DNA from: Komagataeibacter medellinensis NBRC 3288
Lineage (GTDB): Bacteria > Pseudomonadota > Alphaproteobacteria > Acetobacterales > Acetobacteraceae
NCBI RefSeq assembly: GCF_000182745.2
Contig: NC_016027.1
Coordinates: 2,076,001-2,140,000, forward strand
Length of the DNA stretch: 64,000 bases
Direction: 5' to 3'
Shown in pieces: positions 48,300-57,613 of this stretch. A model generated the notes under the pieces. That model worked only from the letters and a program-made list of their open reading frames with translations, ran no database searches and was not told where the DNA came from. Each line of letters opens with the position of its first letter. The stretch's first letter is position 1. The translations under genes were made by a program, and so were the position numbers.

Positions 48300-48376
48300 C
48301 GGAGTGTAGCTCAGCCTGGTAGAGCACTGTGTTCGGGACGCAGGGGCCGGAGGTTCGAATCCTCTCACTCCGACCA
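48300..48376 (+). tRNA. tRNA-Pro (anticodon CGG)
   Basis: A complete cloverleaf with acceptor CGGAGTG/CACTCCG, D-arm AGCTCAGCCTGGTAGAGC, anticodon loop TTCGGGA (anticodon CGG), T-arm GGAGGTTCGAATCC and encoded CCA at 48374-48376. Confidence 0.97.
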
Positions 48377-48564: not shown

Positions 48565-49359
48565 ATGCAAATTTCTTCAGTCGTCGCGCATTCTGATACG
48601 CATGACAGAGGGGAGGCCCAGCCGGGGCCGGTCCTGAGCATCATCATTCCCTGTTACAATGAACGGGGCAATGTGGAACCCCTGGTCCGCGCCGTGGAAC
48701 AGGCAGTGACACACCCGCATTGGGAACTTATATTCGTTGATGACAACTCCCCTGATGGCACCATTGGGGAAATCTGGCGTCTGGCGCAGCTAGACAGTCG
48801 GGTGCGCGGCATCCTGCGTGTGGGCCGCCGTGGCCTGTCCTCTGCCGTGATCGAGGGGGTATTGTCGTCATCCGCGCCGATTGTTGCCGTGATGGATGGT
48901 GACATGCAGCATGATGAACGGCTGCTGGAACAGATGTTCGATGCCATCCACAACCAAGGTTACGATGTAGCGATTGGCAGCCGCCATGTCGAAGGGGGTG
49001 ATAACAGTGGCCTTGCCAATGCCTGGCGGTTATTCCTGTCCAATACCGGCATCCGTATTGCCCAGTGCTTCCTGTCCGTGCGGGTCAGTGATCCGATGAG
49101 CGGGTTCTTTGCCGTCCGGCGCGACCTGTTCGTCAACTCTGTCGCCAATCTTTCCGGCACGGGATTCAAGATCCTGCTTGATATGCTGATGGCGCAGAAA
49201 ACCACCCCACGGGTCATTGAACTGCCATTTGTTTTCCGTTCACGCCATGAAGGGGAAAGCAAGATGGACAGCAAGGTGCTTGTGCAGTTCGGGCAGATGA
49301 TTCTGCAGCATATGCTCAAGAAAAAAAAGCGTTCTCTTTCCGCTGTTTCCTCATCGTGA
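48565..49359 (+). CDS. Family-2 glycosyltransferase, dolichol-phosphate-mannose-synthase-like
   Basis: The 264 residues have LSIIIPCYNERGNVEPLV, FVDDNSPDGT, GRRGLSSAVIEGVLSS and the DXD-type VMDGDMQHD, then the SDPMSGFFAVRR segment, ending without membrane segments. This is the DPM1 pattern: it moves mannose (or another sugar) from a nucleotide sugar to a polyprenol phosphate in the membrane. The following genes are GT-C-like transferases that use such lipid-linked sugars. Confidence 0.85.
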   Translation: MQISSVVAHSDTHDRGEAQPGPVLSIIIPCYNERGNVEPLVRAVEQAVTHPHWELIFVDDNSPDGTIGEIWRLAQLDSRVRGILRVGRRGLSSAVIEGVLSSSAPIVAVMDGDMQHDERLLEQMFDAIHNQGYDVAIGSRHVEGGDNSGLANAWRLFLSNTGIRIAQCFLSVRVSDPMSGFFAVRRDLFVNSVANLSGTGFKILLDMLMAQKTTPRVIELPFVFRSRHEGESKMDSKVLVQFGQMILQHMLKKKKRSLSAVSSS

Positions 49360-49387
49360 AAACAGGCTTCGCCGTAGCCTGTTTTTC
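49360..49387 (+). terminator. Terminator after the DPM1-like gene
   Basis: ACAGGCT and AGCCTGT pair around TCGCCGT, and T-rich sequence follows. The rest of the 306-base gap up to 49666 shows no gene that I can support. Confidence 0.7.
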
Positions 49388-49665
49388 TCTGCTCCAGGCG
49401 CATAATTCCTACCCGTAGCAGCGAATGTTCCGGCTCCCGGAGCAAAATCTGGTTTTCGGCTCTCGATGTGTCATGACCGCGCACGCCATGGAGATCCCCG
49501 AAGGTTTGATGGTAGCGTCAGAAGCATGTCTGTTTACATGGTGCGGGGCCGACTGGATGGATAGCCCCCAAGGGAACGCCAGGCCGTTCAAGGTTGAGTA
49601 ACGTTCTGTCTCATGGGGGGAGTCAGGCAGACGGGCTACGATGACGAAACGGGATTTCCTTTGGC

Positions 49666-51192
49666 ATGTTCGGTCCGATGGATATGAAGATGATAAAAAA
49701 CAGCAGGTTGTCAGTGCCGTTCATAGTCTTCATATTCATTATTTCGTTCCTTTACCGCTTTGCCATCCCCTGTTTTTATCCCTCGGCCCTGCGTGCGGAT
49801 GAAATATTCCAGGTCCTCGAACCTGCCCATCGCCAGTTGACCGGCCACGGCGTGACAACCTGGGAATGGCAGGCCGGTATCCGTAACTGGGCCTTTCCTG
49901 ATCTGATCGCGGATGTATGGCGCGTAACCGATGCTCTGGGGCTGGGGCATTCGCCGCTTTGGATACAGGGTATCTTGTGTTTTTTTTCGCTTGGTCTCGT
50001 TGCAGTCTTCATGGGACTGGGCAGGATTGCGGCGGGGCGCACCGGGCTGGTTGCTTGTGGTCTCATGGGTGCGTTATGGCCAGATCTCGTGCTGGGGGCC
50101 TCCCGTACCGCAACCGAGATGGTAGGGGGTAACCTGCTGGCGCTGGGCACAATTATGGGAATGATTGCGCGTATGGCGCAGGGCAGCCAGCCTGGCTTGT
50201 CTCTTTCCCGTGTGGCAGGTCATGGCATTACCGGTCTTTATACGGGCTCGGCATTTTTTATCGGCTGTGGCGCAGGGTTGCGTTTCCAGCTTATGCCCGC
50301 TGCCGTTCTGACGCTGGTATGGATGGTATGGTGGTGCAGGCGGCAACTGGTCCGGGTCGTATTGCTGGCTACGGGTTTTGCCCTGCCTGTGCTGGTATAT
50401 GGTCTCGTTGACCTGCGGACATATGGTACACTGTTTGGTTCTGTTTTCCGTAACGTGCATGCCAATATCGGGCAGAATATTGCTGCCAGTTATGGAACGG
50501 CGCCCTTCTATTTCTATATCATCGACCTGCTGGGGCGCTGGCAGGTGGCTTTTGTGCTCGTCATCGGCTTTTTCATATATGGGTTCCGTCAGTTTTCCAT
50601 GCCAGCCATGGTGGCGGTGGCGGTCATTCTGTCCCATTCCTTGATCGGTCATAAGGAACCGTCCTTCATTTACGGTGCCATCCCGTTACTGCTGGTCGTG
50701 GCGACAGTGGCGTTCAGCCAGTGGGTAAACCAGGATCCACTTCTGTGGTCAGGGCGCAGGGTCATGTTGGGGCTTGTCATGATACCATTGCTTGGCTTTG
50801 TGCAAGAACTGTCCCTGATCCATATCCGTAACAGTGATGCCCTGATCCGCCTGCAGCAGATTGCAGCGCGGCAGCCCGATATCTGCGGCCTGGCATTTCC
50901 CATTCGGGGGGAGTGGTCCCATGTGGGGGGGTACTCCTATTTTCCCCATCATGACGTGCCGCTCTATTTTGCTTATGATACAGCCTCTATGGCGCAACTG
51001 GCTGGACGGTACAACTACCTCATCACATATGGTAAAACGTGGTCCGCACCACCCGAGGATAAGAGTGTCGCCTGCTTGCGGGAGTTCTGTCTTTTCCGCG
51101 TGGAATCCCACTGTAGTGCCCCGCCGGATTATGAACAGTTCGGACAGGTGGTAAGGCAGTATGAAGCAGCTACCCATGCTGGTCACGATTAG
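49666..51192 (+). CDS. GT22-type (Alg9/GPI mannosyltransferase-like) membrane glycosyltransferase
   Basis: The 508-residue polytopic protein starts at ATG 49666 or 49678 and has a first membrane segment at about 12-32. The first luminal loop reads ADEIFQVLEPAHRQLTGHG, then TWEWQAGIRNW, the GT22 pattern with its conserved Asp-Glu. About ten further membrane segments follow. Enzymes of this type move mannose from polyprenol-phosphate-mannose to lipid-linked glycans on the periplasmic side. The DPM1-like gene upstream can make the donor. The acceptor is unknown. Confidence 0.78.
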   Translation: MFGPMDMKMIKNSRLSVPFIVFIFIISFLYRFAIPCFYPSALRADEIFQVLEPAHRQLTGHGVTTWEWQAGIRNWAFPDLIADVWRVTDALGLGHSPLWIQGILCFFSLGLVAVFMGLGRIAAGRTGLVACGLMGALWPDLVLGASRTATEMVGGNLLALGTIMGMIARMAQGSQPGLSLSRVAGHGITGLYTGSAFFIGCGAGLRFQLMPAAVLTLVWMVWWCRRQLVRVVLLATGFALPVLVYGLVDLRTYGTLFGSVFRNVHANIGQNIAASYGTAPFYFYIIDLLGRWQVAFVLVIGFFIYGFRQFSMPAMVAVAVILSHSLIGHKEPSFIYGAIPLLLVVATVAFSQWVNQDPLLWSGRRVMLGLVMIPLLGFVQELSLIHIRNSDALIRLQQIAARQPDICGLAFPIRGEWSHVGGYSYFPHHDVPLYFAYDTASMAQLAGRYNYLITYGKTWSAPPEDKSVACLREFCLFRVESHCSAPPDYEQFGQVVRQYEAATHAGHD

Positions 51193-51307
51193 GCAGGGAA
51201 GGGACGAAGCTACCGCTGGGAAGTCGGTCTTTCTACAAAGAAGAAGATACAGAAGATGGCCCTGAAGCGTTCTTGTTTTTCAATTATTTCAAGGCAGGCT
51301 CGATGAT

Positions 51308-52975
51308 ATGAGCGTAAACGGCAAATATATTTATCTTATTCTGATATTTTCTTTTATGTTACTTGGGGGAATTTCGTGTTATCATTACGGTTTGCGGTTT
51401 TTACCTGATTCAGATCAGGCCAATGCTCTGTTCGAGGCGCAAGATATTGCGCAAGGAAATGTGTTTCTGAAGGGATGGGTCAACTCCCCCGATAATTTCT
51501 GGTTGATAGACCTGCTGAGCATGGCTGGTTTGCTCAAAATCATACCAGATGGCGTGACTGTGTTGCATCTTCTGCCGGCCCTGTGGTGGGGAGGAATCAT
51601 CGGAGTTGCATCATGTCTGGCGTGCAACGGCAGGGGGGGCAGATCATGGCGATGCCTGCTGCCAGTTGTGGCCTTTATTGCCATCATTCCTCTGTATGAG
51701 CAGGGGGCGCTCGCGTTCGTTACTTATACGCCTTATCACGTGGGGACGATGTTCGTTGCGCTGCTTGGTATCATGGCAACAGGGCGGGTGTTGGACGGAA
51801 CAGGTGGAAAGCTGGCGCAGGCCAGTCTGTTTGGGATCGTTAGCGTTATCTTTATTAGTGACCCGTTTGCCGTATGCTGTTTTGTCATGCCGGCCTGTCT
51901 TGTCAGTCTGTGGCGGGTCTGGACGGGGGATAAACCCGCCAGCGGCGTACGCTGCTTCGTGCTTATGGTTCTCGCCTTTGTAGTAGCTACGGGTATCAAG
52001 ACCGGCATCCGTGAGGCAGGAGGCTTTCGGTCCATGCACGCTGCGGCACATTTTCTGCCGCTGTCCGAGCTGCCTCGGCATCTGATATTTTCGCTTATGT
52101 CTGTGCTTGATCTGTTTGGTGTCAACTTTTGGGGCAAGACTATTGCTGGGCGCGCTAACCACAATGCCCTGACAGATATGGTACGCTTGGTACCGTTTGC
52201 GCTCATCGTGCACTATGTGTGGCGTTATGTCCGTAACCGGCTGGATGAGGTTAGACAGAACCGGTCTTTTTCTGGTGGCGATGCTGTCTCGGATATTCTG
52301 GTGCTGGGCCTTGTCATGGATGCCGTTGCGGCCTCAGTACTGAATTTCTATATCCCGGGAGAGGACATTATTCGTTATTTTCTGCCGGTCCTGCTGTTTG
52401 CTCCCATCGTTTATGCCCGTTCTGGCAATGCTGAAAAGACATCCGGCTTATTTTTGGGCGTGATTGTGTGTTCATCATTGGCCTGTGTACTGACATGGAA
52501 TCCGCGACAGGATGTGGATGTGGATATCGATCCATATCAGGTCGGTCATCAGTTGGATGTGCGGCCTCTGGTGGAGCTGCTGCGCCAGCAGCACCTTACG
52601 CATGGGTATACAGATTATTGGCATGCCTCGCTTACAACATTGGTCAGCGGGGATGAGATAAGACTGCGGGCAATTACGGATAGCCCGGATACATTTGGCC
52701 CGAAGCTTGGTGCGTGCACCCTGCAGGCCCGTCCGTGGCTGAGCAAAAGGCAGTGGTATCTGCCCGAAGATTTGCAGGGTACGGACCGGGTCTTTTTCCT
52801 GGTCTATTCCCATGCCCTTCAGAGTGACGATCACCTAACGCGAGCTGTCATTGTGAAAAACCTTGGAACACCCAATCTGGTTCTGCCCGTAGACGACTCA
52901 CTGTCGCTGCTCATATATGACCGTCAGAGAGTCATGCCATGTCATGGTCTATTTGAGTGGAAAGAGAATAGATAA
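51308..52975 (+). CDS. Polytopic GT-C-like membrane protein, unassigned
   Basis: The 555 residues start with one membrane segment (residues 8-28), then the loop LRFLPDSDQANALFEAQDIA, which places acidic residues where GT-C enzymes have their metal/donor site. About nine further membrane segments follow, and a 150-residue soluble C-terminal part. I do not recognise a named family. The location between GT22-like and PIG-V-like genes supports a role in the same glycan pathway. Confidence 0.55.
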   Translation: MSVNGKYIYLILIFSFMLLGGISCYHYGLRFLPDSDQANALFEAQDIAQGNVFLKGWVNSPDNFWLIDLLSMAGLLKIIPDGVTVLHLLPALWWGGIIGVASCLACNGRGGRSWRCLLPVVAFIAIIPLYEQGALAFVTYTPYHVGTMFVALLGIMATGRVLDGTGGKLAQASLFGIVSVIFISDPFAVCCFVMPACLVSLWRVWTGDKPASGVRCFVLMVLAFVVATGIKTGIREAGGFRSMHAAAHFLPLSELPRHLIFSLMSVLDLFGVNFWGKTIAGRANHNALTDMVRLVPFALIVHYVWRYVRNRLDEVRQNRSFSGGDAVSDILVLGLVMDAVAASVLNFYIPGEDIIRYFLPVLLFAPIVYARSGNAEKTSGLFLGVIVCSSLACVLTWNPRQDVDVDIDPYQVGHQLDVRPLVELLRQQHLTHGYTDYWHASLTTLVSGDEIRLRAITDSPDTFGPKLGACTLQARPWLSKRQWYLPEDLQGTDRVFFLVYSHALQSDDHLTRAVIVKNLGTPNLVLPVDDSLSLLIYDRQRVMPCHGLFEWKENR

Positions 52976-53084
52976 TACTTTCCCTTCGACGAGGGGCACT
53001 GAGGTATGCGTTCTCCCACGTTGATGCATAGTCGTTTCTACTTTCTGTTCTTATAGAATAATGTGCGATCCAGCCAGGACACAG

Positions 53085-54188
53085 ATGAAAACCAAGATAT
53101 GGGCATTTCTTCTTTTCGTGCATGCTGCCGTACTGGGCTGTATTGTATGGCTTGCCCGTTCCTATGGCGGAATAGCGGCGGCTTCGTGCCACTGGGACTG
53201 TTCGGATGCTTATATGCGCATCGTGGACCAGGGTTATGATCGGACATCGTCCCTTGCCGCCCAATGGCTGGGAGAGGCAAATTGGGCTTTTTTTCCCGCT
53301 TTTCCCCTGACCCTGCGCACCATAAGGGATCTGACCGGATTACCCGCGCCCGATGTGGGTATCATACTGAACGCCGTTCTGCTGCCGATGTTGGCCTGGT
53401 TATGCTACCAGTACCAAAACAGGAAATGGGGACCGGTCGATTATCGGCTTTACTTCCTGTTCTTCTTTACCTTTCCAGCTACCCTGTGGTTCAGGGTCCA
53501 GTATACTGAATGCATGTTCGGCCTGTTCCTTATGGGTATGGCCTGGGCCGTTCTGAACAGCCGGTTCTATGTGGCGTCGCTGTCCGCCCTGCTGTTATGT
53601 CTCACCCGGCCAACGGGCATCCTATGTGTGCTGGTCTTCGCCGCGTTTCATATATTCATGTCCTGGCGGCGGAATGTCGGCTACCGGGGAAGGGAGCGTC
53701 TCCAGGCCCTGGCCGCATCGGTGATGGACAGCAGCCTGCTGGTTCTGGCTGGTGGGACCGGTATCTCGTTGTTTATGATCTATCTGTATCGTCTGACTGG
53801 CGACAGTCTGGCTTTTTCCCACGTACAGATTGCCTGGCATCGTGTATTCCATTTTCCGGGCTATTGGGTGTGGTTCAATCTGGAACACAAGACCCACGTC
53901 AACCTGGTAGTGGCGGCAATTCTGGACATGATCGTGATTTACAAGGGTTTCCAGAAGAAGCTCTATCTTGAAACGACCGTCCTGCTGGTTACGTTCATGG
54001 TTGCGTTTTCCTCAAGCCTGCTGTCGATCCATCGCATCATCATGGCTAATCCATTCTTTTTCATGATTGTCTATGCATGTCTGATGGATATGCGGCCTGC
54101 CGTGCGCAATGCGTTCATTGCCTTTTTTTCTGTTACCCTGCTGGTGATTACGGTCTTGTGGTTCCATGATACCAACCTGCTTTATTAG
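53085..54188 (+). CDS. PIG-V/GT76-like membrane mannosyltransferase
   Basis: The 367-residue protein starts at ATG 53085 (MKTKIWAFLLFVHAAV); the frame is open to 53061. The loop after the first segment has WDCSDAYMRIVDQGYD, then LGEANWAFFPAFPLTLR and later TLWFRVQYTECMFGLFLMG and LSALLLCLTRPTGIL. These are the features of the PIG-V family, which adds mannose to GPI anchors in eukaryotes and has bacterial relatives. The substrate in this bacterium is inferred. Confidence 0.68.
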   Translation: MKTKIWAFLLFVHAAVLGCIVWLARSYGGIAAASCHWDCSDAYMRIVDQGYDRTSSLAAQWLGEANWAFFPAFPLTLRTIRDLTGLPAPDVGIILNAVLLPMLAWLCYQYQNRKWGPVDYRLYFLFFFTFPATLWFRVQYTECMFGLFLMGMAWAVLNSRFYVASLSALLLCLTRPTGILCVLVFAAFHIFMSWRRNVGYRGRERLQALAASVMDSSLLVLAGGTGISLFMIYLYRLTGDSLAFSHVQIAWHRVFHFPGYWVWFNLEHKTHVNLVVAAILDMIVIYKGFQKKLYLETTVLLVTFMVAFSSSLLSIHRIIMANPFFFMIVYACLMDMRPAVRNAFIAFFSVTLLVITVLWFHDTNLLY

Positions 54189-54194
54189 GCTACA

Positions 54195-54434
54195 ATGAAC
54201 ACTCGCTCTCCTACTGTCCGGTTGGGGTATACGGTACGGTGGTACCTTGTACGTCTGGTACTGATTGCGCTATTGGGCGGCATCAATCTGTTTGCTTTCA
54301 GCCTGCGTTGGTATCCGCATGTGAGTGATAATTACCGCGATTTCTATATGCGACACGATATAACGCTGGGAGAATACGAGGCTAACGAAATCCGTGGTGT
54401 TTATGCCAGCCATCAAGATCGCTGGAGACGGTAG
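54195..54434 (+). CDS. Small membrane protein, 79 aa, hypothetical
   Basis: One membrane segment (about residues 15-37, YLVRLVLIALLGGINLFAFSL) is followed by a charged tail with many Asp, Glu and Arg. It begins 6 bases after the PIG-V-like gene, so it is probably co-transcribed and may be a partner of the membrane enzymes. No family recognised. Confidence 0.5.
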   Translation: MNTRSPTVRLGYTVRWYLVRLVLIALLGGINLFAFSLRWYPHVSDNYRDFYMRHDITLGEYEANEIRGVYASHQDRWRR

Positions 54435-54607: not shown

Positions 54608-57373
54608 TTACTGCGGAGCTTGGGGACTGCCACTTTCGGCAGGTTTCTGTTCCGTGACGTGCGTATTGTTGCCTGAGGGAACGGCTGTCTCGGTGGGTTG
54701 TGCAGCCGGAGCGGGTGGAGTGATTGCATTCCCCGCAGGCTGCGGTGCGGGCGGCGCAGAGGGGGGCGTCGCAGGCAGAGCGGCTGCGGCTGGCGCTGCG
54801 CCATCATGCGGTTCCGGTGTTCCTGTCTGCGTGTCTGTCGATGCCGGTGTTGTCTGGATAGGGGGAGCGACAGGTGTGGCAGGTTGTGGTGGCGTGAGCG
54901 TTGGGGTCTGGGCCGGTATCTGTGTCGCGGAGGTAGGTGCACTTGCCCCCACGGTGGACATCTGCGGCAGGGCTGGGGTCGGGGCAACCGGGCGGGGCGT
55001 GAGTGTAACAGTGGGCTGGCTGTAGCGGTTCAGGACATCATTGTCGCTCTGCACGCCATAGGCGTTCATGGGCGGCAGGGGCTGGGGGGATGGCTGGTCG
55101 GCGGCCGGGTTGCGGTCCAGCACCACGCGGGTGTTCTGCGGGTAGCGGTTCATCAGGCCGAGCAGCGTGCCATTGGTCCAGCCAAAGCCGATCTGCATGG
55201 GGTATTCACCGCCACCCTTGCCGCCCTTGGGGCTGATGAAGGGATTGACCACGTCATATTTCTCCAGCAGCACGCCGGATTTTTCATACGTGCCGATTAC
55301 GCGCCCCATCCACCGCGCCGCGATGTCGCTGGCCAGGGCGTCGTAGCCATACTGGTTCAGACCCTTGACCGCCATCCACTGCAGGGGGGCCCAGCCATTG
55401 GGTGAATCCCACTGCTGCCCGCTACCCGTGCGCTCGGTGGCGATCAGGCCACCGACCTTGAGCAGGTTCTTGCGGATGGTTTCGGATACGGCCTTGGCCT
55501 GTTCTGGTGTTGCCATCTGCAGGAACAGGGGTACGGCGGTTGCACCTGAGAGGATGGAGGTCGATTCCCCCTTCTTCCAGTCATAGTCGATAAAGGCCGC
55601 GCGCCGTTCATCCCACAGCACGCGCCGGGCGGCTTCCACGCGCTCCTGCGCCAGATGGCTGTAGTGGGCGGCGGCTTCCTTGTTGCCTTTCAGTTCATAG
55701 GCGTGGGCCAGCGTCTGTTGCAGGTGCGGGATCAGGAAGTTGAGTTCCACCGTCAGCAGGTCGGTGGTGTGAATGGTGGACAGGGTATGCCCGTCGGCCA
55801 GCCAGCGTGAGGAGAAGTCCCACCCCGTTTCCGATCCCGCGCGCAGATCGCGGTAGACCTCTTCCTTCGGGCGGCCGGACTGGGCGGCAGTGGCGATGTC
55901 CTCCGGGTAGCTTTCATCGCGCGGGGTATCCATGTCATCCCAGTGGCGATTCATGATCGTGCCATCGGGCAGGCGTACCACATGGCGGTAGGCCCCACCG
56001 GGGGGGACGGAATCCTGCCCATCCATCCAGTAATCATATTCCGCCTGCAGTTCGGGCAGGAAAGTGGTGTAGGCCACCTGCCCGTCATGCATGGCCAGCA
56101 GGTCCACCATAAGCGAGAAGAACGGTACCTGCGAACGGCTGAGGTAATAGGTCCGGCTGCCGTTGGGAATGTGGCCGTAGCGGTCGATCATCGAAGCCAT
56201 GTCGCGGATCATGTCGCGCATGAGGTCGATCTTCTGGTTCTCGTACAGCCCGATCATGGTGAAGTAGCTGTCCCAGTAATACAGTTCACTGAAACGGCCA
56301 CCCGGCACCACATAGGTATAGGGCAGCGGTAGCTGGGAGGAATAGGCCACCTGCGTATCGGGCGGGCGGCTCAGCACGTCCCACATGCCGTTGATGTAGT
56401 CGCGTACGTTTTCATCGGGACTGCGCTGGTACGATACGGTCTTGCGCTCGGGCAGGGTGAAGTGCCGGGCGACGAAATCCTTCAGCGAGAAATCAGGCCG
56501 CAGCCGGGCGGTATTGTATTCCGCCATCAGGTCGGCCGGAGCCTCGTCGGGTATGGCGTCGGCCGCGGTCTTGGCGTCGGTATAGATATGGGCCTCGCCA
56601 ATGGCCTCGAACAGACCTGCCAGCACGATGGAGGGTGGCCGCAGATCCTGCGCCAGCGCCGCTGGTGCCGCCGCGTCGGACAGCAGGGCCGTAGCGGGGG
56701 GGACCGGCGTACTACCGCTGGAAACTGGTCCATCTTTGTGTATGACCTGCGCGGATTGGGTGCCCGGTGCGGGTGGCGTGGCTGGAGCGGCCTGTTCGAC
56801 ATCGGAAGGCGTGGCCGTTCCAGCATGGACGGGGGCTGGGGAAGGCGCTGCCGGTGCACCTTTATCCTGTGGCGGGACCGGGGCTGCCGGGGTGTCGGGC
56901 TGCGTTGCCGTAGTGGCTGGCGCCGTTACCGCAGGCGTTGCGGCTGCCGGGGCGGCAGGTGGCGCAGGCTGAACCTGCGGTGTTCCGGTTGTGCTCACCG
57001 CAGGCTGCGCGGGTGCGGCCTGTGGCGCTGGGGCCGGGGTCATATTCTGTGGCGCGGATGGCATGCTGCCGCTCCCCGAGAGTGGTTCGGGTGTGGGGAC
57101 GGAATAGGTCTGTTCGTCTGCATCGGCGGCAGGGACCGGAGTGGAGGGCGGCGGCGTGGCTGGAGCGGGTGCCGCTGCCGCTGCCGTTCCATCCGTATCG
57201 TGCGGTGCAGATGAGACGGACGCGGGCGTACTCGCCAGATCCGCCTGTGCGGGGGCAGACGCTGTCTGGGCCAGGGCGGGTGCGGCAGCGTACAGGAGGC
57301 TGGCCAGCACAAGCCCGGCCTGACGGGGCGCGGACCGGGACAGGGTTGAACCGCACAGGAGGGAAACTTTCAC
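54608..57373 (-). CDS. treA: Periplasmic trehalase (GH37) with Pro/Ala-rich arms
   Basis: The frame is open from 57520, but GTG 57373 directly starts a signal peptide (RQAGLVLASLLYAAAPALAQ). A 200-residue Pro/Ala/Thr arm precedes the GH37 domain, which carries the signatures PGGRFSELYYWDSYF and QWDSPNGWAPLQW, the catalytic Asp of ETGWDFSSRW and the Glu in LLEKYD. A second Pro-rich arm of about 110 residues ends the protein. It splits trehalose to two glucose in the periplasm. The chain is far longer than the usual roughly 550-residue trehalase. Confidence 0.88.
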   Translation of the reverse strand: MKVSLLCGSTLSRSAPRQAGLVLASLLYAAAPALAQTASAPAQADLASTPASVSSAPHDTDGTAAAAAPAPATPPPSTPVPAADADEQTYSVPTPEPLSGSGSMPSAPQNMTPAPAPQAAPAQPAVSTTGTPQVQPAPPAAPAAATPAVTAPATTATQPDTPAAPVPPQDKGAPAAPSPAPVHAGTATPSDVEQAAPATPPAPGTQSAQVIHKDGPVSSGSTPVPPATALLSDAAAPAALAQDLRPPSIVLAGLFEAIGEAHIYTDAKTAADAIPDEAPADLMAEYNTARLRPDFSLKDFVARHFTLPERKTVSYQRSPDENVRDYINGMWDVLSRPPDTQVAYSSQLPLPYTYVVPGGRFSELYYWDSYFTMIGLYENQKIDLMRDMIRDMASMIDRYGHIPNGSRTYYLSRSQVPFFSLMVDLLAMHDGQVAYTTFLPELQAEYDYWMDGQDSVPPGGAYRHVVRLPDGTIMNRHWDDMDTPRDESYPEDIATAAQSGRPKEEVYRDLRAGSETGWDFSSRWLADGHTLSTIHTTDLLTVELNFLIPHLQQTLAHAYELKGNKEAAAHYSHLAQERVEAARRVLWDERRAAFIDYDWKKGESTSILSGATAVPLFLQMATPEQAKAVSETIRKNLLKVGGLIATERTGSGQQWDSPNGWAPLQWMAVKGLNQYGYDALASDIAARWMGRVIGTYEKSGVLLEKYDVVNPFISPKGGKGGGEYPMQIGFGWTNGTLLGLMNRYPQNTRVVLDRNPAADQPSPQPLPPMNAYGVQSDNDVLNRYSQPTVTLTPRPVAPTPALPQMSTVGASAPTSATQIPAQTPTLTPPQPATPVAPPIQTTPASTDTQTGTPEPHDGAAPAAAALPATPPSAPPAPQPAGNAITPPAPAAQPTETAVPSGNNTHVTEQKPAESGSPQAPQ

Positions 57374-57613
57374 GAGACGCCATTTCTCCGAACAATGAAA
57401 ACCTGAGCTTTGCACAATGCCCTGCCTTGGTCTGGTATCACAAAGGGAAACCGTGCGGATGGAGGGAAGTTCATTTTCAGGCATGGTGGCTGTCATGAAC
57501 AGGCACCAGCTTTCCACCATGGGCTGAAACCAGCTATGGTGGGTGCCCTTTTGGGCCTACATGGGCCGAATGGTCGTGTTTTTTCCTGTTCCGTTAACCG
57601 GAGTCGCCACTTC

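Follow-up and report, generated by a model that had tools for sequence, protein, structure and literature searches.

We propose that a gene cluster of Komagataeibacter medellinensis NBRC 3288, lying in a 64,000-nucleotide stretch of contig NC_016027.1 (hereafter the window), is part of a modular system in which undecaprenyl-phosphate-mannose would decorate a periplasmic glycan, probably LPS, and in which the small membrane protein P0005 would be a subunit of a PIG-V-like enzyme; we put the probability of this reading at about one half. The features concerned are listed below by window position.

48300..48376 (+): tRNA-Pro (CGG), found by ARAGORN and as Rfam tRNA, directly upstream of P0001
48565..49359 (+): P0001, 264 aa, very probable GT2 polyprenyl-phosphate-mannose synthase, DPM1-like, without a C-terminal transmembrane domain
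49358..49386 (+): hairpin that overlaps the P0001 stop codon and has a T run within the 3' arm; perhaps an intrinsic terminator
49666..51192 (+): P0002, 508 aa, GT22 (Alg9-like) GT-C glycosyltransferase
51308..52975 (+): P0003, 555 aa, membrane protein with several spans and a C-terminal part outside the membrane region
53085..54188 (+): P0004, PIG-V-like GT-C glycosyltransferase; its ORF opens at 53061 (375 aa)
54195..54434 (+): P0005, 79-residue single-span membrane protein beside P0004

The donor synthase

The original prediction of a DPM1-like gene was borne out for P0001, which matches PF00535 of Pfam (E 8.1e-31) and, in the PDB, the dolichol-phosphate-mannose synthase 5mlz (E 2.7e-39), ArnC (2.3e-8) and sll0501 (6.3e-8), so that by PDB E-values its GT2 domain is nearer to DPMS than to GtrB/ArnC. 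All ten active-site residues of PfDPMS that we checked in the alignment (D89, D91, Q93, H94, R117, R131, S135, K178, R202 and K208; offset of 22 set by the DADLQH motif, with which Gly158 agrees) are identical in P0001, and these residues serve in binding GDP-Man, metal and lipid phosphate (PMC5526996, excerpt). At the His of DADLQH, which P0001 keeps, GtrB carries Asp. On these comparisons P0001 very probably acts as a polyprenyl-phosphate-mannose synthase, and its product is predicted to be undecaprenyl-phosphate-mannose. The hairpin at the end of the gene (-14.1 kcal/mol, z -3.7, 2 of 200 shuffles equally good) was not listed by a pattern scan; together with the 306-base gap that follows P0001, it suggests separate transcription of the synthase.

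The synthase is a core gene of the family, being found in 19 of 19 Komagataeibacter genomes and in 100 of 120 genomes of the family (E<=1e-40, own genome included). The GtrA/DPMS transmembrane domain, absent from P0001, is present in the six family orthologues scanned. Of 30 family loci, 23 have a PMT_2 (GT83-type) gene in the 1.5-kb flank of the synthase; this gene is complete in 17 of the 19 Komagataeibacter genomes and partial in G123, G129 having just a weaker paralogue. In our own genome this gene is not linked to the P0001 locus, and the synthase has apparently moved to its present place within Komagataeibacter.

The GT83-type genes bear on another reading, in which P0001 and this old partner would add the 4'-mannose of lipid A and the cassette would extend the mannose of lipid A (or of a hopanoid), not the O-polysaccharide. 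Besides the frequency of PMT_2 genes near the synthase and in the genus, it draws on lipid A of Acetobacteraceae: in Granulibacter bethesdensis it has an alpha-Man at position 4', and its sugar backbone is described as identical to the A. pasteurianus one (PMC8036547, excerpt); a mannosylated lipid is thus not new in this family, contrary to what had been supposed. In this published structure, however, the 4'-mannose is terminal (PMC8036547, excerpt), nothing links P0002-P0004 with lipid A, the weaker paralogue of G129 fits poorly, and the literature matches listed included no lipid A structure from Komagataeibacter, so that we regard this reading as unlikely. The old synthase-GT83 pair as such could make the lipid A 4'-mannose of acetic acid bacteria.

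The glycosyltransferase genes behind the synthase

P0002 is a GT22 enzyme as judged from its sequence, in agreement with the original prediction: it matches PF03901 (Glyco_transf_22, Alg9-like) with 104 bits against a cut-off of 23.8, its profile (A3) matches human ALG9 (9s6s, E 5.3e-7) and chicken ALG12 (9s6t, E 2.3e-5), and R43, D45, E46, H329, K330 and E331 are invariant in ten sequences. For P0003, predicted as an extra GT-C-like protein, the ORF exists and is multi-spanning in a simple hydrophobicity scan; it has no Pfam or NCBIfam match and no meaningful PDB match, and its profile does not match the GT22 profile, so that the likeness is one of topology and genomic company. P0003 has a match in 7 of the 120 family genomes (own included).

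PIG-V is the family GT76. P0004 has no match to PF04188 (Mannosyl_trans2, 'PIG-V') or to any other Pfam family at E<=1; PF04188 matches 4 of the 17 members of the P0004 alignment (P0004 and 16 relatives; best E 1.1e-7), P0004 not being among them, and we therefore call it PIG-V-like and not PIG-V, in which form the earlier assignment holds. Its AlphaFold2 model (pLDDT 94.7) has a GT-C fold, aligning with ALG12 at Z 20.8 over 314 residues (3.9 A), and D46, E150, R183, D248 and R325 are invariant in 51 sequences. The relatives and this confident predicted model together show P0004 to be a PIG-V-like GT-C enzyme. Its start is likelier at 53085 than at 53061, because the ATG there is common to the relatives. 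A PIG-V-like gene occurs in 14 of the 120 family genomes (own included).

Twelve of the 19 Komagataeibacter genomes have the locus, eight with GT-C genes behind the synthase in varied combinations and four (G120, G123, G132 and G060) with nothing between the synthase and the next conserved gene. The synthase is followed by GT22, P0003, PIG-V-like and small-protein genes in our own genome and G121 (whose contig stops before the right flank), by GT22, PIG-V-like and small-protein genes in G128, by PIG-V-like and small-protein genes and a further ORF in G129, by a 108-aa ORF, P0003 and two GT22 genes in G122, and by a second GT2, other genes on both strands and one GT22 in G127 and G130; the cassette of G126, whose locus is split by contig ends, is reconstructed and possibly has more genes. 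G122 and G129 are close in the synthase tree (clade 100/99), yet they have different gene sets. GC contents are 0.50-0.55 for the four accessory genes, 0.60-0.66 for nine flanking genes, 0.56 for P0001 and 0.574 for the whole window. This comparison of gene orders shows the synthase as the constant part and the GT-C genes behind it as interchangeable accessories. In loci fetched from other family genomes with GT22 or P0003-like genes, no DPM1-like gene was nearby, and the link of GT-C genes to a DPM1-type synthase is thus largely peculiar to Komagataeibacter.

The set had been likened to GPI or N-glycan assembly of eukaryotes, and this likeness is weakened by the contrast between a core donor gene and exchangeable GT-C genes. 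A fixed eukaryote-like pathway was rejected, since the GT-C genes differ among related genomes. Mannosylation of proteins (O- or C-linked) or a glycolipid pathway of the eukaryotic GPI type appears very improbable to us: eukaryotic PIG-V does act in GPI assembly (PMC7125958, excerpt), and ALG9 and ALG12 (GT22) act in N-glycan assembly according to their structure titles, but changing subsets of GT-C genes are unlike a fixed pathway. As to acetan or cellulose genes, the alternative named in the original prediction, the cluster itself bears no evident mark of them, and the two GDP-mannose pyrophosphorylase genes of the genome, each with GT2 neighbours, lie hundreds of kilobases away.

We found no support for deriving the cassette from a phage or plasmid. 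P0003 has no match to phage records at E<=0.01, and its PHROG matches are function-unknown families (best 2e-5, residues 424-545); P0004 matches six records of a plasmid collection at 26-29% identity.

A putative small partner of PIG-V-like enzymes

The 79-residue membrane protein, P0005, exists as had been noted, with one hydrophobic segment in a hydrophobicity scan. It has no match in Pfam, NCBIfam or PHROG, and its family is new to these libraries. We examined 80 PIG-V-like loci (the best 80 of 147) with a profile trained on 11 small proteins, and a small protein adjoins the PIG-V-like gene in 53 of them under a lenient, strand-blind rule of adjacency, some matches being weak (15-25 bits) and some falling within long ORFs overlapping the enzyme gene (e.g. 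L160, L161, L177 and L187). When the seven loci from training genomes (L113, L114, L115, L124, L128, L148 and L156) are excluded, the count is 46 of 73. One of the 55 small-protein ORF matches is away from the enzyme (L180:1994-2491, 15 bits), just upstream of a stronger, adjacent match; apart from this weak extra match, the small protein occurs only beside PIG-V-like genes within the 80 loci. Of the 27 loci without a match, one (L190) has a small protein by eye. In L144 the small ORF is on the opposite strand, convergent with the enzyme gene.

In the co-occurrence analysis, which had been proposed originally, P0005 pairs with P0004, and the GT-C set behind the synthase varies among genomes of the genus. 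The small protein is present in 9 of the 120 family genomes, all nine within the 14 that have a PIG-V-like gene (own included; hypergeometric 1.9e-10, kinship of genomes ignored), and the other five gave no match, with at most 50 candidates scored in most genomes. The motif P.[VTA][ST]..[YW] was seen in 39 of the 55 ORFs of small proteins, as against 85 of the 7,887 other ORFs, a descriptive count and not an independent test, as the ORFs were preselected by the profile. Longer members carry an extra carbohydrate-binding-type domain, the long partner combining a single membrane helix with a beta-rich domain that lies outside the membrane; the predicted domain of L172 is nearest to CBM35/CBM22 modules. 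The family, with short and CBM-bearing long forms, is found in Proteobacteria and in Lachnospiraceae and other Eubacteriales. By gene linkage, proteins of the P0005 family are conserved and usual companions of PIG-V-like enzymes, and we infer that P0005 forms a complex with P0004.

Sugar donor and proposed pathway

A supply of GDP-mannose is indicated by the bifunctional GDP-mannose pyrophosphorylase gene found in 19 of 19 Komagataeibacter genomes. Our own genome has two genes of this family, both above the cut-off; they lie some 970 and 485 kb from the cluster, and each has GT2 genes no more than about 5 kb away.

A GT2 gene (DPM1 profile) adjoins the PIG-V-like gene in 16 of the 80 loci. Among these, the GT2 of L114 is orthologous to P0001 and that of L172 is DPM1-like (217 bits), and the six classified further are all GtrB/ArnC-like, below curated cut-offs; the GT2 of L132 has sll0501 as its best PDB match (E 5.5e-61, vs 4.4e-6 for DPMS). 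Seven such GT2 genes (six from the 80 loci, one from G060) have PgfS/ArnC-like best models, again below cut-off. As the adjacent GT2 genes are mostly GtrB/ArnC-like where classified, the sugar of P0004 need not be mannose. This PIG-V-like enzyme and P0003 could then use another sugar from another lipid donor, their position behind the mannose synthase being incidental. Several distant PIG-V-like genes beside GtrB/sll0501-type GT2 genes speak for this, as do a further GT2 gene adjoining a PMT-family gene in our own genome and the GT22 and P0003-like genes outside the genus that have no DPM1-like neighbour in the loci fetched. Against it, no GtrB-type synthase was found in our own genome at E<=1e-8, the query returning just P0001 at 29% identity, and a GtrB-type gene is present in one of the eight genomes with GT-C genes behind the synthase vs 10 of the 11 others (Fisher p 0.0012, kinship ignored). 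When G134 and G136, which have both GT-C genes near the synthase and a GtrB-type gene, are moved to the GT-C group, the counts are 3/10 vs 8/9 (p 0.020, kinship ignored); in G121 the GtrB-type gene is in pieces. We consider this alternative rather doubtful, with a minor share of the probability.

In the reading that we prefer, P0001 would transfer mannose from GDP-mannose onto undecaprenyl phosphate at the cytoplasmic face, and the lipid-linked mannose would be flipped to the periplasmic face. None of the five locus proteins matches PF04138, i.e. there is no GtrA-type flippase gene at the locus, and the one GtrA gene of our own genome is elsewhere; 3 of 8 tested genomes with the short synthase have no GtrA at all. 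The idea that a standalone GtrA is the broken-off membrane domain of P0001 was rejected, as seven of eight fused-domain genomes tested have a second GtrA match. In the periplasm, the GT22, the PIG-V-like enzyme and probably P0003 would pass mannose on to a glycan of the cell surface, for which LPS polysaccharide or core is the likeliest candidate, and the side-chain pattern would thereby be specific to the species; we infer the sugar of P0002-P0004, the acceptor and the linkage. P0005, with one helix and a short periplasmic tail, would dock on the PIG-V-like enzyme as its subunit, and the synthase would be the constant part of a mix-and-match system, with GT-C genes exchanged behind it. The original idea, GT-C enzymes served by a polyprenyl-phosphate-mannose donor, holds in this form. 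It would point to genes that are candidates for the transfer of mannose in acetic acid bacteria; the matches listed in searches of titles and abstract starts, mainly of non-subscription literature, included no paper on Komagataeibacter mannose synthase genes and none on a small protein paired with PIG-V-like enzymes in bacteria.

Comparison with known systems

The P0005-P0004 pair is parallel to the yeast pairs Gpi18-Pga1 (PIG-V type) and Gpi14-Pbn1, each a GT-C enzyme with a membrane partner (PMC7125958 and PMC12653191, excerpts), with no homology detected. Pbn1 resembles the bacterial long partner in its single membrane helix and beta-rich extramembrane domain, whereas the L172 domain is nearest to CBM35/CBM22 and a GPI-like acceptor has no support here. 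Ten bacterial partners matched no GPI-related Pfam family (Pga1, Pbn1, PIG-X) at E<=1, and Pga1, Pbn1, PIG-X and PIG-T were not among the matches listed for the long partner (Foldseek and VIA, 50 structures listed in each). That bacterial PIG-V-like enzymes are two-subunit enzymes, with the small family as counterpart and possibly ancestor of the partners of eukaryotic GPI mannosyltransferases, in a design that predates GPI anchors, is a speculation to which we give little credence. Why yeast Gpi18 needs a partner and mammalian PIG-V does not is stated to be not known (PMC7125958, excerpt), and the bacterial pair may serve as a simple model for this question of the GPI literature.

P0001 shares the GT2 domain and the checked active-site residues with the Pyrococcus and human DPMS (PMC5526996, excerpt), and differs in having no GtrA/DPMS transmembrane domain. 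In the three-component GtrA-GtrB-Gtr system (PMC11127046, excerpt), as in our model, a GT2 enzyme loads undecaprenyl phosphate, the periplasmic GT-C is exchangeable and a change of GT-C changes the glycan. Here, in contrast, the donor synthase is DPM1-like and not GtrB-like, the locus has no flippase gene, and several GT-C genes stand together, with GT22 and PIG-V-like families and a small partner; the bacterium may thus alter its surface sugars by swapping enzymes behind a fixed donor synthase.

Layout and identity of the five genes

The five ORFs of the original prediction, P0001-P0005, were all found, on the + strand, and the cluster and its neighbour are as follows.

48565-54434, + strand, cluster of five ORFs between tRNA-Pro and a convergent trehalase-like gene
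54608-57520, - strand, trehalase-like ORF (named by eye), 970 residues

The trehalase-like ORF has very long Pro/Ala-rich stretches at each end. By eye, we take the flanking genes to be FolD, MTHFR, NUDIX, MFS, LOG, TreA, TldD, PdxJ and PdxA. GC content is 0.50-0.55 in the accessory genes P0002-P0005, as against 0.60-0.66 in nine flanking genes, 0.56 in P0001 and 0.574 in the whole window. A hairpin at the 3' end of P0001 and the 306-base gap behind it suggest that the core synthase is transcribed separately; P0004 and P0005 are spaced by 6 bases.

P0001 is a GT2 enzyme that, among solved structures, best matches the dolichol-phosphate-mannose synthase of Pyrococcus (E 2.7e-39), the matches to the ArnC and GtrB-like sll0501 structures being weaker (E about 2e-8 to 9e-8), and it keeps 10 of the 10 checked residues that the structure paper, in the excerpt used, assigns to metal, donor and lipid phosphate (PMC5526996). 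P0002 is a GT22 protein with a Pfam score far over the cut-off, and its profile matched the ALG9 and ALG12 structures. P0004 itself had no Pfam match, but of the 17 aligned sequences (P0004 and its relatives) 4 matched the PIG-V Pfam; as modelled by AlphaFold2 (mean pLDDT 94.7), it is a complete GT-C (multi-spanning glycosyltransferase) fold. In a hydrophobicity scan, P0003 has about 10 hydrophobic segments followed by a C-terminal tail some 160 residues long, and searches of Pfam, NCBIfam and PDB gave it no known family. P0005 has a single hydrophobic segment.

Constant synthase and variable neighbours

What stays constant is the donor synthase: all 19 Komagataeibacter genomes, our own included, have a P0001 orthologue. 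It sits in the tRNA-Pro locus in 12 genomes and in other surroundings in 7, two of which (G134 and G136) have a GT22 or PIG-V-like gene nearby. Among the 12, four (G120, G123, G132 and G060) have no gene between the synthase and the trehalase-like gene, and eight carry GT-C genes 3' of the synthase, as listed below.

Genes 3' of the synthase at the tRNA-Pro locus
Own genome and G121: complete set P0002-P0005
G128: GT22, PIG-V-like, small protein (the last found by tblastn)
G129: PIG-V-like, small protein, one further ORF
G126 (fragmented assembly): PIG-V-like and small protein, on a separate contig reaching into the right flank
G122: 108-residue ORF, P0003-like, two GT22
G127 and G130: second GT2, GT22, further ORFs on + and - strands

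The synthase tree groups G122, G126 and G129 in a single clade (100/99), although the gene content of G122 differs from that of G129. At the variable locus of G127 (L075:5834-7320) the second GT2 is followed by a VTT-domain membrane protein.

In the wider family Acetobacteraceae, 100 of 120 genomes, including our own, have one synthase match each (E<=1e-40), with an open frame of at least 350 residues in 85 of the 100. A GtrA/DPMS transmembrane domain follows the GT2 domain in all six scanned family orthologues (L207, L209, L214, L218, L223, L226); P0001 has no such fused domain. A PMT_2-family gene lies within 1.5 kb of the synthase in 23 of 30 fetched family loci; this partner, which we call GT83-type, flanks five of the six fused orthologues, the exception being L226. 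Its own-genome counterpart is at G000:C3:915012, beside thioredoxin-reductase-like, response-regulator-like and NUDIX-like genes (by eye), as in two relatives that still hold the synthase there. Because the counterpart keeps the neighbour kinds of synthase-bearing relatives, the synthase was probably transferred, in Komagataeibacter, to the tRNA-Pro locus, its former partner staying in place. A 4'-mannose of lipid A is known in Granulibacter and A. pasteurianus, according to an excerpt of PMC8036547, and the pair of synthase and GT83-type gene is a good candidate for its maker; G129 apparently lacks a full GT83-type partner gene, which counts against this assignment.

Sugar donor

A GT2 matched by the DPM1 profile adjoins the enzyme in 16 of the 80 PIG-V-like loci analysed (best 80 of 147). 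Seven such GT2 (six of the 16 and one from G060) were classified and all resembled PgfS/ArnC models, below cut-offs; one, compared with solved structures, fell to the GtrB (sll0501) type, whose in vitro donor is UDP-glucose (PMC5526996, in excerpt). A further two GT2 were DPM1-like: that of L114 is the P0001 orthologue, and that of L172 scores 217 bits. Since both types occur beside PIG-V-like genes, the PIG-V-like family as a whole is not tied to mannose.

For the cassette P0002-P0005, sequence evidence favours mannose, because a GtrB-type query against our own genome matched P0001 alone (29% identity), because the GtrB type occurs in 1 of the 8 genomes with GT-C genes behind P0001 at the tRNA-Pro locus versus 10 of the 11 others (3 of 10 versus 8 of 9 with G134 and G136 regrouped), and because every one of the 19 Komagataeibacter genomes has a GDP-mannose pyrophosphorylase gene. 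Against mannose, none of the loci with GT22 or P0003-like genes that were fetched outside Komagataeibacter had a DPM1-like gene nearby.

At L204:7956-10415, beside ATP-synthase-like genes (by eye), a GT-C gene of the PMT family is accompanied by a GT2 of 259 residues. This GT-C gene was found in all 19 Komagataeibacter genomes, and with the GT2 it may possibly form a second lipid-linked sugar system.

Small partner protein

P0005 had no match in Pfam, NCBIfam or PHROG, and its partner protein family, not met with in any of the libraries searched, is the most interesting element of the locus. Its members lie directly 3' of several distant PIG-V-like genes. A profile built from 11 of the proteins was run on every ORF of the best 80 of 147 PIG-V-like loci, and matched in 53, adjoining the PIG-V-like gene in 53 of 53; L180 has one weak additional match, one gene away from the enzyme. 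The small protein is 5' of the enzyme in the Lachnospiraceae loci L170, L180, L186 and L188, and 3' in L192 (Eubacteriales) and, by eye, L190 (Lachnospira). Among the same 80, loci titled Neisseriales, Neisseriaceae or Burkholderiales gave no match, and Paraburkholderia L160 gave one. In L146, L152 and L162 the PIG-V-like gene is broken into two ORFs, perhaps through decay or a frameshift. When the 120 family genomes were searched with A6, an alignment of small proteins, nine had the protein. Each of the nine is one of 14 genomes in which a PIG-V-like gene was found, and the matches listed included none from the other five.

Short forms (about 50-130 residues) have one hydrophobic helix, then the common pattern P-x-V-S-x-x-Y-R-x-Y/F-Y/F-I, of which Tyr is the sole position invariant in A6. 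Long forms (about 190-320 residues) are found in Devosia (L172, L184), gammaproteobacterial (L158, L159), myxobacterial (L189) and lachnospiral (L180) loci, in Acidisoma (L157) and in other genomes. That of L172 (10947-11588) was modelled (pLDDT 79.6) as a helix and a beta sandwich outside the membrane, the closest among the matches listed being CBM35 and CBM22 (Z about 11; also in the Foldseek list). Ten partners searched against Pfam gave none over a cut-off; DUF6023 was matched weakly at E 0.014, a CBM-like domain at E 0.0083.

Predicted mode of action and known systems

P0001 is predicted, with strong support, to load mannose onto undecaprenyl phosphate on the cytoplasmic side; the lipid-linked mannose would then cross the membrane, and GT-C enzymes would transfer it in the periplasm, P0004 acting with P0005. 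That the cassette enzymes share this donor is moderately supported. By analogy, and only so, with the exchangeable Gtr systems described in an excerpt of PMC11127046, the acceptor might be an LPS glycan. Our own genome has one GtrA gene, outside the locus, and all 19 Komagataeibacter genomes carry a GtrA gene; none was found in 3 of 8 tested relatives with a short synthase. One standalone gene is given below.

L243:5731-6258, - strand, standalone GtrA gene, no GT2 among the fetched neighbours (by eye)

The original prediction read the DPM1-, GT22- and PIG-V-like genes as a set resembling the donor synthase and mannosyltransferases of eukaryotic GPI or N-glycan assembly. This reading is partly supported: the likeness holds family by family, but the set is not a fixed one, as the GT-C genes vary between genomes. 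In design, the P0004-P0005 pair is like Gpi18-Pga1 and Gpi14-Pbn1, as these appear in excerpts of PMC7125958 and PMC12653191; a homology of the partners was not detected, ten of them matching no GPI-related Pfam family (E<=1). The cassette would work like three-component periplasmic glycosylation. Unlike that system, it has a donor synthase of the DPM1 type and multiple GT-C genes, and its locus contains no flippase gene.
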